64,000 bases of DNA from Streptomyces sp. HUAS MG91. Its GTDB lineage: Bacteria > Actinomycetota > Actinomycetes > Streptomycetales > Streptomycetaceae. Below the pieces are notes generated by a model. The model saw only the letters and a list, made by a program, of their open reading frames with translations, made no database searches and was not told where the DNA came from. The position numbers were made by a program, and so were the translations under genes. Positions 4,750 to 30,251 of this stretch are shown here, in pieces. The stretch is from positions 124,001 to 188,000 of the forward strand of contig NZ_CP159534.1 in the NCBI RefSeq assembly GCF_040529335.1. The letters run 5' to 3'. How positions within the stretch are numbered: the stretch's first letter is position 1; every line of letters starts with the position of its first letter.

Positions 4750-4989
4750 CGTCAGGTGACAGCAGCATGGCAGCACCGTATCCCCATTCCCTGCAGCCAC
4801 TTGGGCACGATCACCACCCCAACCTCGGCGCACCACCCCCGCGTACAGCGACGATGCGCCCTCGTCGCCCACTGCCGAAGTGGGCCCATCCGAGCACATT
4901 GAGATCAGCACCGAGCTACCGGCTGCCTCCCTGAAGAGGAACCGCACCCTTTCCCAACTGACCAGCCGGCTCCGTGGAGCGCGGACCAT

Positions 4990-5205
4990 GTGCCCTTCGG
5001 CTTCGCCGCCACCCGCACCCACAAGCTCACCCCGGGCCAGAAGGAAGCCAACCGTGTCCTCGCCGTCGGGCGCGCACCGGTCGAGCACGGCTTCGCCCAC
5101 CTCAAGAACTGGCGGATCCTGACCAAGCTCCGTACCAATCCCGCCCGCGCCACCCACCTCCGGCGTGCACTGCTCGTTCTGACGAACCTGGAAGTCAACC
5201 GCTGA
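4990..5205 (+). pseudogene. C-terminal relic of an IS5-type DDE transposase
   Basis: The last 71 codons read as the C-terminal catalytic helix of a DDE_Tnp_4/IS5-like transposase: VEHGFAHLKNWRILTKLRTN, with the catalytic Glu in VEHGF, ending in ALLVLTNLEVNR and a stop. The N-terminal DNA-binding part and the first two catalytic Asp residues are missing. No inverted repeats were found. It lies next to the DUF7660 relic, so the 4.4-5.2 kb stretch is an insertion and decay spot. Confidence 0.7.
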
Positions 5206-26030: not shown

Positions 26031-27128
26031 TCAGGAGCGGTCCGCTCCCCCGATGTGGTCGTCGTCCCGCAGCAGAGGCAGCAGCTGGTCTCCGATCCGG
26101 CGGGTTTCCTCCTTGTACGGGGTGTCGGACAGGACGAAGTGGGTGACGCCGAGCGCTCGGTAGGCGTCGAGTGCCGCGGCCACGTCGTCGGGCGAGCCGA
26201 CGAGCCAGGTGGTGGCCGCTCCCCCGCCGCCGAACCTGCCCGGCGTGGTGTAGAGGCAGGTGTCGAGGACCTCGCCCCGCTCGGCGAGGTCGAGGAGCCG
26301 GCGCTGGCCGACCGCTGTCCTGCGGTTGCCCATCCAGGTGCCGATCTCGCCCGCGTCGGCCGCCATCTTCGCGACCTTCTCCTCCGCCGCGCGCCAGGCC
26401 TCCTCGGTGGTGTCGCGGACGACGGTGGTGATCCGCAGGCCGTACTCCAGCGGGGCATGGCGACGTTCCACCCGGTCGGTGAGCTCCTTCAGTCTGGCGA
26501 CGCGTTCGGCGATTCCCTCCAGCGGTTCGCCCCAGAACAGCTGGACGTCGGCCTCGGCCGCCGAGACGCGTTCGGCGGCCTCGGACGCGCCTCCGAAGTA
26601 GAGGGGCGGATGGGCCCGTCCCTCGGTGGCGTACGGGGGCGGGCTCACCGTCGAGTCGGTGACGTGGAAGTACTCGCCACTGAAGGTGACGTTCTCCTCG
26701 GTCCACAGGCGTCGTACGAGATGCAGGAATTCCTGGGTGCGGGCGTAGCGCGCGGCAGGCTCGACGATGGTGTCGCCGTAGGCGGCCGGGCTGTCCACGC
26801 CGCTGACGACGTTCACCAGGAGGCGGCCGCGGCTGAGCTGGTCGAGGGTGGCGGCGGCGCCGGCGAAGTTCGCGGGCTGCCAGTAGCCGGGGCGGACGGC
26901 GACCAGGGGTTTGAACGTGGTGGTGCGCGCGGCCAGGGCGGTGGCGACGGTGAACGTGTCCGGGCGTCCCCATCCGGTGCCGAGGAGGGCGCCGCTCCAC
27001 CCGTGGTCCTCCGCGGTGCGGGCGAGTTCCGTCGAGTGCTCGATGGATCCCCAGCCGGAGGTCGTGTCGTCCCCGCGGTGCCCGGGCTGGACGGTGTTGG
27101 GGATGTACCAGAGGAATTGCGGGGTCAT
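26031..27128 (-). CDS. SsuD-like FMN-dependent monooxygenase (LLM class)
   Basis: The 365-residue protein is a luciferase-like monooxygenase of the alkanesulfonate type. The start FLWYIPNTVQPG, VAVRPGYWQPANFAGAAATL, LLVNVVSGVDSPAAYGD and PPLYFGGASEAA blocks follow SsuD order. SsuD uses FMNH2 and O2 to release sulfite from sulfonates; a partner flavin reductase is not in this cluster. It is translated right after the DHA2 exporter gene (ATGA overlap), third in an operon headed by a sulfur-type leader peptide. C-terminus slightly shorter than E. coli SsuD. Confidence 0.85.
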   Translation of the reverse strand: MTPQFLWYIPNTVQPGHRGDDTTSGWGSIEHSTELARTAEDHGWSGALLGTGWGRPDTFTVATALAARTTTFKPLVAVRPGYWQPANFAGAAATLDQLSRGRLLVNVVSGVDSPAAYGDTIVEPAARYARTQEFLHLVRRLWTEENVTFSGEYFHVTDSTVSPPPYATEGRAHPPLYFGGASEAAERVSAAEADVQLFWGEPLEGIAERVARLKELTDRVERRHAPLEYGLRITTVVRDTTEEAWRAAEEKVAKMAADAGEIGTWMGNRRTAVGQRRLLDLAERGEVLDTCLYTTPGRFGGGGAATTWLVGSPDDVAAALDAYRALGVTHFVLSDTPYKEETRRIGDQLLPLLRDDDHIGGADRS

Positions 27129-28681
27129 GACGGTTCCGTTCGTCGGTCGGGCAGGAGCGGCGGAGCGGGAATTCGGCCTCGGCCGTGCGAGGTGCCCGGC
27201 GGTACGCAGCGTTGAGGCACGGCGAGTTCGCGCCCGGCGGTGTCGTCCTTCGCCTCGGCAGGCGGGCCGCTCGGGGGTCGTCCGAGCCCGGACGTGCGCA
27301 GTCGTGAGAGCAGCAGGGCCACCGCGAGCAGGCCGGCGCAGGCGCAGGAGGCGAGGGCGTACGCGGATCGGGGGCCGCTGCCTCCCGGTGGCGTCGGGGC
27401 GGAGTGCAGATACACCGCCGAGACCGCGCTCAGGCAGACCGCCGCGGCGATGCGCTGTGCCATCTGCAGAATGCCGCCGGCCACTCCTGCCGCCTCGGCC
27501 GGAGCGTGGTGCAGGACCTGGGTCTGGTTGGGCGAGACCGTGAGGCCCGCGGCGGCGCCGGTCAGCAGCTGCACGCCGGCGCAGGCCAGGGGAAGCGCGG
27601 AGGTGGGCGCCGTGAGCGCGACAGCGCTCCCGGCCAGGGCGGCTCCGATGCCCAGGAGGAGCCCGAGGGACACCGTGCGCGGTCCGATGCGGCGCACCAC
27701 GCGCCAGGCGAGCGCGGAGGCGACCCCCATCGCGAGCGCCGAGGGAAGCGTGACGGCCGCGGTGCCCAGAGCCGTCAGGCCGAGCCCTTCCTGGAGGAAC
27801 ACGGTGAGCACCAGGGAGGAGGCGAGCGTGGCGCCGAACTGGGCCATCGCGACCGCCGTGCCCAGCAGGTACGGCTTCGACGTCCTGAGGGCGGGATGCA
27901 GCAGGGCCCGGCGTCCGCGGCGTACGCGCAGTCGTTGATGCCCGCTGAGCGCGGCCGCCAGGACGACCAGTCCGGTCGCCCACGCGAGCGCCTCTCCCCT
28001 GCTGCCCGGAGTACGGATGAACGGGACCATCAAGGTCAGCGTGCAGGCGCACGCCAGGGTCAGGCCGAGGATGTCGAGCCGGGCATCGCGGGCGGTGCGC
28101 CGGGGTGGCGGCAGCCACCGCGCCGCCAGTACCAGGGTGAGGATCGCGCACGGCGCGCTGAGCAGGAGGCAGCAGCGCCAGCCCCGTTCGGGACCGAGGG
28201 CGGCGACGAGTGCGCCGCCGAGCGGCGGGCCCAGAGCCGTGGCCACGCCGGACGTCACCGCGTACAGGCCCAGGGCGCGGCCTCGGGCCTGGCCCCGGAA
28301 GAGGTCCTGGAGGGTTCCGATCACCTGGGAGTTCACGAGCCCCGCCGCGGCCCCCTGCACCAGGCGCGCGGTGATCAGTGTGCCCGGCCCGCGGCCGGTC
28401 GCGGCCGCCGTCCCCGCGATGAGGAAGGCGGCCACGCCCAGCAGGAAGAACCGCTTGCGCCCGTGCGCGTCACCGAGGCTGCCGCCCGGGACGAGTGCCA
28501 GCCCGAAGGCCAGCGAGTATCCGGCGACGATCCATTGCACGTCCCCGGCACCGGCCCCGAGCGAGTGCCGCATGCTCGGCACGGCGATGTTCAGCACGGC
28601 CTGGTCCAGCAGGGTCGTCGCCCCCGCGGCCAGGCAGACGAGCAGGGCGCGCCGGGCGGCGCGGTCTTCTCCGGGGAGCAT
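27125..28681 (-). CDS. DHA2-type MFS transporter in sulfur operon
   Basis: The 518-residue protein has about 14 membrane segments, TTLLDQAVLNIAVPSM in helix 1 and motif A as GGSLGDAHGRKR. The C-terminal 60 residues are hydrophilic and proline-rich, longer than usual. Its ATG directly abuts the TauD-family stop and its own stop overlaps the monooxygenase ATG, so all three are translated together. An exporter within a sulfonate-type operon is unexpected and suggests removal of a product rather than uptake. Confidence 0.85.
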   Translation of the reverse strand: MLPGEDRAARRALLVCLAAGATTLLDQAVLNIAVPSMRHSLGAGAGDVQWIVAGYSLAFGLALVPGGSLGDAHGRKRFFLLGVAAFLIAGTAAATGRGPGTLITARLVQGAAAGLVNSQVIGTLQDLFRGQARGRALGLYAVTSGVATALGPPLGGALVAALGPERGWRCCLLLSAPCAILTLVLAARWLPPPRRTARDARLDILGLTLACACTLTLMVPFIRTPGSRGEALAWATGLVVLAAALSGHQRLRVRRGRRALLHPALRTSKPYLLGTAVAMAQFGATLASSLVLTVFLQEGLGLTALGTAAVTLPSALAMGVASALAWRVVRRIGPRTVSLGLLLGIGAALAGSAVALTAPTSALPLACAGVQLLTGAAAGLTVSPNQTQVLHHAPAEAAGVAGGILQMAQRIAAAVCLSAVSAVYLHSAPTPPGGSGPRSAYALASCACAGLLAVALLLSRLRTSGLGRPPSGPPAEAKDDTAGRELAVPQRCVPPGTSHGRGRIPAPPLLPDRRTEPS

Positions 28682-29506
28682 TCAGGAACGCGCCTCCGGC
28701 ACGGGGCCCGCTTCCGGCTCGACGCCGATGACCTTGCGGTAGACGCGTGCCCCGTCGCCGTAGTCGTCGACGGCGTAGTGCCAGGTGGCGCGGTTGTCCC
28801 AGAGGACGAAGTCGCCGGGCTGCCAGCCGAAGCGGATCGTGTAGTCGGGCGAGGAGGCGTGCCGCAGGAGGTGGTCGAGCAGGACCTTGCTCTCCGCGGG
28901 TGTCACCCCGGTGAGGCCGGTCGCCGAGGTGCTGATGAAGAGGCCCTTGCGGCCGGTGGTCGGGTGCGTCAGGACGACGGGGTGTTCGATCGTCGGTCCG
29001 CTCGTGGTCTTCTTGCTGCCCTGCGCGTAGTTCTCCGCGTTGCCGTCGTACACGGCGCTCACGGACGCCAGGAGCTCCTTGAACGGCTCCGACAGATCGT
29101 CGTACGCGGCCTGCAGATCCGCCCACAGGGTGTGACCGCCCAGCTCGGGCACCACCTCGTAGGTCAGCGACTCGATCGCGAAGACGGGGGCGCGCCACAG
29201 GCCGCCGATGTGCCAGGTGCTGGCCTTGCCGGTCTTCCGCACGTTGTACGGGTAGACGAGCGGGTTGGCCGGGTCCTTCGCGGCGGTCGGGTGGTCGAAG
29301 GGCTCGGCGAAGACCCGTACGGCGGCGACGTGCTGATCGGGGGTCAGGTGCTGGCCGCGGAACACCAGGACCTTGTGGTCCCGGAACGCCTGCCGCAGTG
29401 CGTCGGTGGTGGTGGCGTCGAGTGGGCCCGTCAGGTCGATGCCCGTGATCTCGGCGCCGAAGCGCGGTCCTGTCCTGACGATGTCGAACGGGGCGACGGT
29501 GGTCAT
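28682..29506 (-). CDS. TauD-family Fe/2-oxoglutarate enzyme with HxG site
   Basis: The 274-residue protein aligns with taurine dioxygenase over its full length: FGAEITGIDLTGPLD, LVFRGQHLTPDQHV, HPVVLTHPTTGRKGLF and WDNRATWHYA. In TauD iron is bound by His99, Asp101 and His255, and 2-oxoglutarate by an Arg after the second His. Here His99 (TWHIGG), His243 (TWHYA) and Arg254/257 are kept, but residue 101 is Gly, codon GGC at 29204-29206. The spacing from WH to GGHTLW is the same 31 residues as from WH to GGDTLW in TauD, so the Gly truly replaces Asp. In characterised Fe/2OG halogenases (SyrB2, WelO5, BesD) Asp is replaced by Ala or Gly, which opens a site for chloride. Function could be halogenation or another radical transfer, or the enzyme may be dead: GAC to GGC is one base. 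Confidence 0.85.
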   Translation of the reverse strand: MTTVAPFDIVRTGPRFGAEITGIDLTGPLDATTTDALRQAFRDHKVLVFRGQHLTPDQHVAAVRVFAEPFDHPTAAKDPANPLVYPYNVRKTGKASTWHIGGLWRAPVFAIESLTYEVVPELGGHTLWADLQAAYDDLSEPFKELLASVSAVYDGNAENYAQGSKKTTSGPTIEHPVVLTHPTTGRKGLFISTSATGLTGVTPAESKVLLDHLLRHASSPDYTIRFGWQPGDFVLWDNRATWHYAVDDYGDGARVYRKVIGVEPEAGPVPEARS

Positions 29507-29520
29507 GGCGTCTTCTCCTC

Positions 29521-29795
29521 CTTGTACGGTGCGGGGTCGCGCAGAGCGGCGTACTGGGGTGTGCCGTGGCGGCGTGGAGCGGGCGGGTCACGGGGATGTC
29601 GACGGCGATGCGGGCCTCGTCGGCGTTGTGGGTCACCAGGAGCGCGGCGGGGCGGTGTCGTTCACGCAGTTGCCGCAGCGGCTCGTGCACCCGGATGCGG
29701 GTGAGGCTGTCGAGGGCTCCGAACGGCTTTTCCGCGAGCGGGAGTTGTGGTTGGCGGGCGAGGGACACCCGCTGCTGTTCGCCGCCGGCGGTGGG
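29521..29795 (-). pseudogene. ssuB: Relic of a sulfonate ABC-transporter ATPase
   Basis: The frame continues without a break from the stop of the leader peptide: GGEQQRVSLARQPQL (ABC signature), then LPLAEKPFGALDSLTRI where LLLLDEPFGALD is expected, then LLVTHNADEA (H-loop). The Walker B Asp-Glu is now Glu-Lys, and Walker A and the N-terminal half are missing. A further shift near the end puts the last codons in another frame. It is the kind of ATPase (SsuB/TauB) that normally precedes sulfonate enzymes, so the operon once included an importer. The deletion left leader, promoter and enzymes in place. Confidence 0.75.
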
Positions 29796-29870
29796 TCAGC
29801 TACACACCGCGGTGGCGACACGCATCAGATCGATGGCCCGCCGCTTCCGGAGCCGCTGGTTGATCCACAT
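29796..29870 (-). CDS. Sulfur-operon leader peptide
   Basis: A 24-codon ORF runs from ATG 29870 to TGA 29796. Its basic N-terminal part (MWINQRLRKRR) is followed by AIDLMRVATAVCS. The pattern (R/H)-x-x-(I/V)DLxRVxxAxC is that of the short putative leader peptides found upstream of cysteine, sulfate and sulfonate genes in Streptomyces. The conserved terminal Cys suggests that ribosome stalling at Cys codons when cysteine is scarce controls the downstream genes. Too small for ordinary gene calling. The pattern match is strong; the mechanism is inferred from the family context. Confidence 0.8.
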   Translation of the reverse strand: MWINQRLRKRRAIDLMRVATAVCS

Positions 29871-30251
29871 GCCGCCGAAGCTACCGACACGCCAAGTGCA
29901 TTTCAAGGAAAGGGAGTTGGCTGACATCGGGCTGCAACGGCCGTTTCATGGAAGCGCCATGCTGGTGTTACATGCCGGGCAGGCGGCCCGGATTCGGGGG
30001 CGTTCGACCACCGTCAGGGTTAAGACTTCTGGTGTCCTGTCCCCCGTCCAGCACCGCCGTGACCTGCGACGCGCCGCCGAGGGGCCCTGTCACACCCCTG
30101 ATCGTCAGACCCCGGTACAGCGCGGCCTGCCTGCGCGGCTTCCAGCGGGGCAGCATGGACGATGGCAGCTTCCGCCGATCACCGGCCGGTGAGCGGCCGG
30201 ATGCCCGTATCTTCGGCAGCACCCTGTGAAAACGTTCAAGGAGCGCAACTG
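29871..30251. other. Divergent promoter region
   Basis: These 381 bases separate the leader peptide (minus) from the aldo/keto reductase (plus). No family-like frame was seen. The region is less GC-rich near 29885-29945, and should hold the promoter of the sulfur operon and that of the reductase gene. Confidence 0.5.

Follow-up and report, generated by a model that had tools for sequence, protein, structure and literature searches.

The gene described here lies in a stretch of 64,000 nucleotides from the soil bacterium Streptomyces sp. HUAS MG91 (NZ_CP159534.1, positions 124,001 to 188,000), the whole of which we call the window. It encodes a TauD-family protein whose first iron-ligand motif is His-x-Gly-Gly (HxGG) where TauD has His-x-Asp (HxD). 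A preliminary description had proposed that this protein is a candidate radical halogenase. The sequences of the HxGG protein and its gene neighbors make an oxygenase in sulfur scavenging its most likely role. The gene and the codons that set it apart, the latter with coordinates computed from the start of the open reading frame (ORF), are:

28682..29506, minus strand: HxGG TauD-family protein (ATG start, 274 aa, PF02668)
29189..29212, minus strand: altered first iron-ligand motif, codons of residues 99-106 (H-I-G-G-L-W-R-A)
29171..29173, minus strand: codon of Glu112 (GAG), an invariant carboxylate specific to the clade

The protein scored 191.5 bits against PF02668 (TauD/TfdA; cut-off 27) and is a member of that family. 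Its score against the NCBIfam taurine dioxygenase model NF007104 was 175.5 bits, below the equivalog cut-off of 313, so it is not a taurine dioxygenase proper. A Shine-Dalgarno-like AAGGAGGAG was found close upstream of the ATG. The residues that proved to be of note were H99, G101, G102, W104, R105, E112, T126, H243, R254 and K258.

Conservation of the altered iron site

Reading of the codons (ACC TGG CAC ATC GGC GGC) confirmed that T97-W98-H99-I100-G101-G102 stands at the position of the TauD WHxD motif, as had been reported. The window residues T126, H243 and R254 correspond to T126, H255 and R266 of TauD. The numbering of TauD R266 and R270 is also used in PMC7949033, according to which Arg270 holds the taurine sulfonate; Lys258 of the window protein aligns to the Arg270 position. 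The preliminary description had counted 31 residues between WH and the GG-x-TLW block. The three PDB alignments shown have no gap between W98 and W128, and the count itself was wrong: 31 is the full length of the W98-W128 block, and H99 and the GG of the GG-x-TLW block are separated by 23 residues.

Relatives were collected by three protein searches. The query and the best 120 of 916 matches in the first search all carried HxGG (121/121), and a second search, started from the divergent member P0109, contributed another 13 proteins among the best 120 of 434, again all HxGG, giving a clade of 134 (the window protein and P0001-P0133). The third search started from an HxD relative at about 41% identity, and its best 120 of 7976 matches had Asp in 119 cases and Ala in one (P0182). 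Together with four HxD proteins, one from a Streptomyces cellulosae locus (L008) and three from the genome of the window, these formed a comparison set of 124 that stems mostly from a single search. At position 101, Gly was present in all 134 clade proteins vs. 123 Asp and one Ala in the comparison set. Whether Gly101 is conserved among homologs was the check proposed earlier, and no collected clade member had Asp. A strain-specific mutation or sequencing error was ruled out by the same count. The codon for Gly101 varied among 31 motif matches (29 GGC, one GGT and one GGG, from a search pattern that itself required Gly); these matches came from a scan of 34 loci, in which none was found in L029 and L030, both HxD, or in L031, a fragment that starts at residue 184. 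A plasmid collection gave 436 matching records, all below 60% identity and with motifs unread, and hence no close clade member.

The glycine is part of a wider set of changes. G102, W104, R105, F109, E112 and S113 were common to all 134 proteins and P107 to 133 of them. Position 112 was Glu throughout the clade and a small residue in the 124 comparison proteins (115 Ser, 7 Thr and 2 Ala). P0182, the lone HxA protein, has Ser at 112 and no other HxGG-type change in the stretch inspected, and it looks like a sporadic loss or error. The distal His and the 2-oxoglutarate (2OG)-binding Arg, said earlier to be kept, were indeed invariant wherever the sequence extended that far (H243 in 131/131, R254 in 132/132), and T126 was found in 134/134. 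Lys258 was present in 130 of the 132 proteins with a residue there; the two exceptions, P0103 and P0112, carry Arg within C-terminal regions unlike the family.

For a maximum-likelihood tree, 60 proteins from the set of 254 formed by the window and P proteins were combined with ten HxD paralogs (70 sequences, 40 HxG and 30 HxD). The tree was midpoint-rooted and samples part of the TauD family. It placed the HxG proteins on one side of a branch with 100/100 support and a length of 1.67. When the window gene was paired with each of eight orthologs, the ratio of nonsynonymous to synonymous substitution rates (dN/dS) was 0.17-0.27, and the gene is under purifying selection. The preliminary description had allowed for a dead enzyme. 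This is unlikely because both His residues, T126 and R254 are kept and because of the dN/dS values, which also speak against a dead gene.

The HxGG gene is rare. With the genome of the window counted, it was detected in 9 of 295 Streptomyces genomes, 3 of 200 genomes of the same family and 2 of 396 genomes of a phylum sample; in the family of a Pseudonocardia locus (L024), it was found in 2 of 249 genomes including that of L024. A few copies are irregular. The gene of Pseudonocardia alaniniphila (L028, 8001-8791) is split over two frames, and a second locus of Streptomyces sp. CB01635 (L031) and a locus of S. iranensis (L032) hold short fragments of the gene, by decay or assembly error in each case. 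L012 (8001-8831) and L024 (8001-8804) have one stop codon within the part that aligns with the window protein; a genome search with L024's own clade protein gave an open frame.

The genome of the window has six further PF02668 matches, of which three have HxD (L033, L034 and L035), one has HxE (L037) and two have a motif that is not readable (L038 and L039). The HxE gene (G000:C1:6648942-6649820) adjoins an ORF that by eye resembles a nonribosomal peptide synthetase adenylation segment.

An AlphaFold2 model built on a 102-sequence alignment had a mean predicted local distance difference test score of 92 and a predicted template modeling score of 0.89. TauD, AAD-1, PlaO1 and AtsK were the top structural matches among the 50 folds listed; no known halogenase was among these 50, a listing that excludes nothing. 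None was found among the 32 PDB sequences matched by the window protein either. Glu112 probably lies on the inner face of strand 111-118, with residues 112, 114 and 116 pointing inward and 115 and 117 outward, because the model forms a strand there and polar and non-polar residues alternate along it in the family. Glu112 may stand in for the missing Asp, or it may be a substrate-binding residue.

Gene neighborhoods in the window and in relatives

The HxGG gene is followed by two genes on the same strand and preceded by traces of a sulfonate ATP-binding cassette (ABC) transporter:

27125..28681, minus strand: major facilitator superfamily (MFS) transporter, the DHA2 exporter of the preliminary description (PF07690, 158 bits)
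26031..27128, minus strand: SsuD/MsuD-like flavin (luciferase-like) monooxygenase (7jv3, E 7.4e-58; sub-cut-off match to the alkanesulfonate monooxygenase model)
29604..29788, minus strand: ssuB remnant (sulfonate ABC transporter ATPase), 78.7% DNA identity to L001 7534-7727
29794..29951, strand not assigned: stretch resembling DNA upstream of L001 ssuA (4860-5017), 82.3% DNA identity

The HxGG stop and the MFS start are directly adjacent (TGAATG), and the MFS stop and the monooxygenase start share bases (ATGA), consistent with the earlier claim that the three genes are translated together. The monooxygenase was closest to alkanesulfonate monooxygenases (7jv3), with 245.7 bits against the corresponding NCBIfam model (cut-off 510). 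The exporter was present in only 9 of 30 loci, and about 0.8 kb of its middle is gone in L001 and about 1.0 kb in L003, which rules it out as an essential partner. The MFS gene of L026 also gave broken matches, near a contig end. A PADLOC run returned no families.

The gene order in L001 (Streptomyces sp. CB01635) runs ssuA, ssuC, ssuB, HxGG, the MFS gene without its middle and an SsuD-like monooxygenase, and ssuB is longer than in the window. The window remnant had no Pfam match by itself; at the protein level it shared 57% identity with the L008 SsuB-like protein in a 63-aa alignment. In the lineage of the window, ssuA, ssuC and the greater part of ssuB seem to have been lost, since 29604-29788 matches L001 ssuB and 29794-29951 matches the DNA ahead of L001 ssuA.

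Neighborhoods were compared between 30 loci (28 of the 32 found plus L110 and L111, leaving aside the HxD loci L029 and L030 and the fragments L031 and L032) and 40 evenly spaced control stretches from three HxGG-carrying Streptomyces genomes, amounting to 469,276 and 672,000 bases, respectively. The 30 loci came from 30 records, many of them from closely related Streptomyces and thus not independent, and some were cut by contig ends. An SsuD- or NtaA/YtnJ-type monooxygenase, at least 30% identical to the queries, was found near the HxGG gene in 18/30 loci vs. 0/40 controls. Any flavin monooxygenase was found in 21/30 vs. 0/40, the three extra loci being L009 and L014, with proteins of an F420-dependent family (TIGR03620, above cut-off, for L009), and L022, with a protein without family label. 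Sulfonate ABC genes occurred in 7/30 loci vs. 0/40, all seven among the 18, so that 18 of the 30 loci had SsuD/NtaA/YtnJ-type or sulfonate ABC genes and 12 did not. An amino-acid-type ABC binding protein was present in 11/30 vs. 0/40. At least one of these three kinds of gene was detected in 24/30 loci vs. 0/40 controls, a figure that takes in the F420-type and unlabeled monooxygenases and the amino-acid ABC genes; 18/30 is the stricter count. The queries had been drawn from the test loci and the window, and the comparison was hence repeated without self-derived queries: a flavin monooxygenase was again found in 19/30 loci, all within 4 kb and 17 on the same strand, vs. 0/40 controls. The control database did yield 18 matches to other queries at E 1e-10 (12 SsuB-type ATPases, five MFS transporters and one amino-acid permease) and no flavin monooxygenase; at E 1e-5, one control stretch had a flavin monooxygenase match.

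Eight loci (L016-L021, L023 and L024) shared an arrangement of two NtaA-type monooxygenases followed by HxGG; six of the eight also had a CE1758-like monooxygenase and six had amino-acid-type ABC transporter genes. In L018 the second monooxygenase scored above the NtaA/DmoA cut-off, with YtnJ/CmoJ as the closest solved structure, the first just below it, and the CE1758-like protein reached 255.5 bits (cut-off 479). According to PMC10863075 and PMC8234197, CmoJ, SsuD and MsuD cleave C-S bonds. No biosynthetic-cluster context was recognized among the neighbors identified, which are a part of those present. The cluster in L008 (606-10008, Streptomyces cellulosae) combines a canonical HxD TauD gene and the HxGG gene with two flavin monooxygenases and with genes that resemble ssuB and ssuC.

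Function of the HxGG clade and comparison with known systems

We tentatively favor, at a little less than an even chance, an active Fe(II)/2OG enzyme that belongs to a separate TauD subfamily without the Asp ligand (2-His, HxG) and that takes part in organosulfur scavenging alongside flavin monooxygenases. Iron and 2OG would be held by H99, H243, T126 and R254, as their conservation suggests, and reaction with O2 would give a ferryl intermediate, as expected for the family. This intermediate could oxidize a C-H next to the sulfur of a sulfonate, sulfate ester or S-alkyl compound and so break a C-S or O-S bond, which is proposed because of the analogy with TauD and AtsK and because of the neighbors. 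The open iron site may be occupied by Glu112, a small anion or the substrate itself; alternatively, Glu112 and Lys258 may bind the substrate together. The TauD D101A and P4H D414A/G variants speak against easy hydroxylation without Asp, and for this reason we propose a different kind of third ligand.

Several observations weigh against this reading. Engineered loss of the carboxylate abolished hydroxylation in both TauD and P4H (PMC2767507). The 12 loci without an SsuD- or NtaA-type neighbor include three with an amino-acid-type ABC only (L012, L015 and L025) and six with none of the sulfur-type genes sought (L004, L007, L010, L011, L026 and L110). Sulfonate ABC genes reached the thresholds in just the seven loci, and the "cystine" label of the amino-acid ABC is a sub-cut-off match (78.4 of 312 bits). 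Neighbors vary between loci, and therefore no single substrate is indicated.

Under the halogenase proposal, chloride would fill the site of Asp101 and be passed on to a substrate that is an organosulfur compound or an amino acid. This idea found no more than partial support, and we regard it as quite improbable. Gly101 in every clade member agrees with it, since HxG/A replaces HxD in known Fe/2OG halogenases (PMC12346261 and PMC2767507); the second glycine, G102, may give extra room, and product export is conceivable in the nine loci with an MFS gene. The motif alone is insufficient, however: TauD D101A and P4H D414A/G gained no halogenase activity and also lost hydroxylation (PMC2767507), and in a BesD homolog the Asp-to-Gly exchange by itself did not suffice for efficient halogenation (PMC13244439). 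Moreover, the nameable neighbors are mostly of sulfur-scavenging types, Glu112 is invariant alongside Gly101 with no obvious need for it at a halide site, the exporter lacks its middle part in L001 and L003, and the matched PDB sequences include no halogenase. HxG in the clade is thus compatible with halogenation without being a strong argument for it, and the context, which argues for sulfur scavenging, suggests unusual chemistry there more than chlorination. Of the substrates suggested earlier, sulfonate- or amino-acid-like, a sulfonate-like one fits the gene context.

A relocated ligand overlaps with the favored reading as a special case. Glu112 on the neighboring strand would replace Asp101 and give a rearranged 2-His-1-carboxylate site with ordinary hydroxylase chemistry. 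The exchange of S/T/A for Glu at 112, the Ser still present there in P0182 and the predicted inward side chain are consistent with this. The co-variation of Gly101 and Glu112 counts only once, however, because the tree has one evolutionary event, and position 112 probably lies near Lys258, which makes a salt bridge or substrate contact as likely; we consider the relocation unlikely. A non-catalytic protein, either a sensor of 2OG/Fe or organosulfur compounds or the product of a decaying gene, would account for the lost iron ligand, the fragments in L031 and L032 and the two-frame gene in L028. It is very improbable, given that neither His nor any 2OG-binding residue varies where the sequence covers it, that dN/dS is about 0.2 and that P0182 shows what sporadic loss looks like, namely loss of the Asp with no other change in the stretch inspected.

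The favored sulfur-scavenging oxygenase may also belong to a natural TauD-type class that holds iron on two His and an unconventional third ligand (the Glu of the next strand, an anionic organosulfur substrate or a sulfite product) and performs C-S cleavage or radical anion transfer beyond the reach of HxD enzymes. This broader proposal is possible and somewhat on the unlikely side; if true, it would show evolutionary rebuilding of the facial triad. The clade has a second invariant carboxylate, and its genes are often close to sulfur-scavenging ones; it offers a test of whether a metal ligand can be relocated in Fe/2OG enzymes. Asp-to-Gly is usually taken as a halogenase signature, and a TauD subfamily with HxGG in 134/134 members tests the trust placed in it. 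The HxGG protein is also a candidate new step in microbial organosulfur use. Neither a TauD-family enzyme with HxG nor a TauD-family halogenase was found in the accessible parts of the open-licence PMC literature, which is weak evidence of absence.

The window protein is 31-38% identical in structural alignments to TauD, AtsK and Rv3406 (taurine dioxygenase and alkyl sulfatases), from which it differs by Asp101 to Gly and Arg270 to Lys258, and the clade differs from them by the new invariant residues G102, W104, R105, F109 and E112. Fe/2OG radical halogenases (SyrB2, BesD, DAH and WelO5) share with the clade the superfamily fold and HxG/A in place of HxD, whereas the clade has sulfur-type neighbors and the extra invariant Glu112. 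We know of no HxG TauD-like protein in the SsuABC/SsuD or CmoJ/YtnJ organosulfur pathways; monooxygenases related to those of the two pathways adjoin the HxGG gene in 18 of the 30 loci, and sulfonate ABC genes do so in seven.
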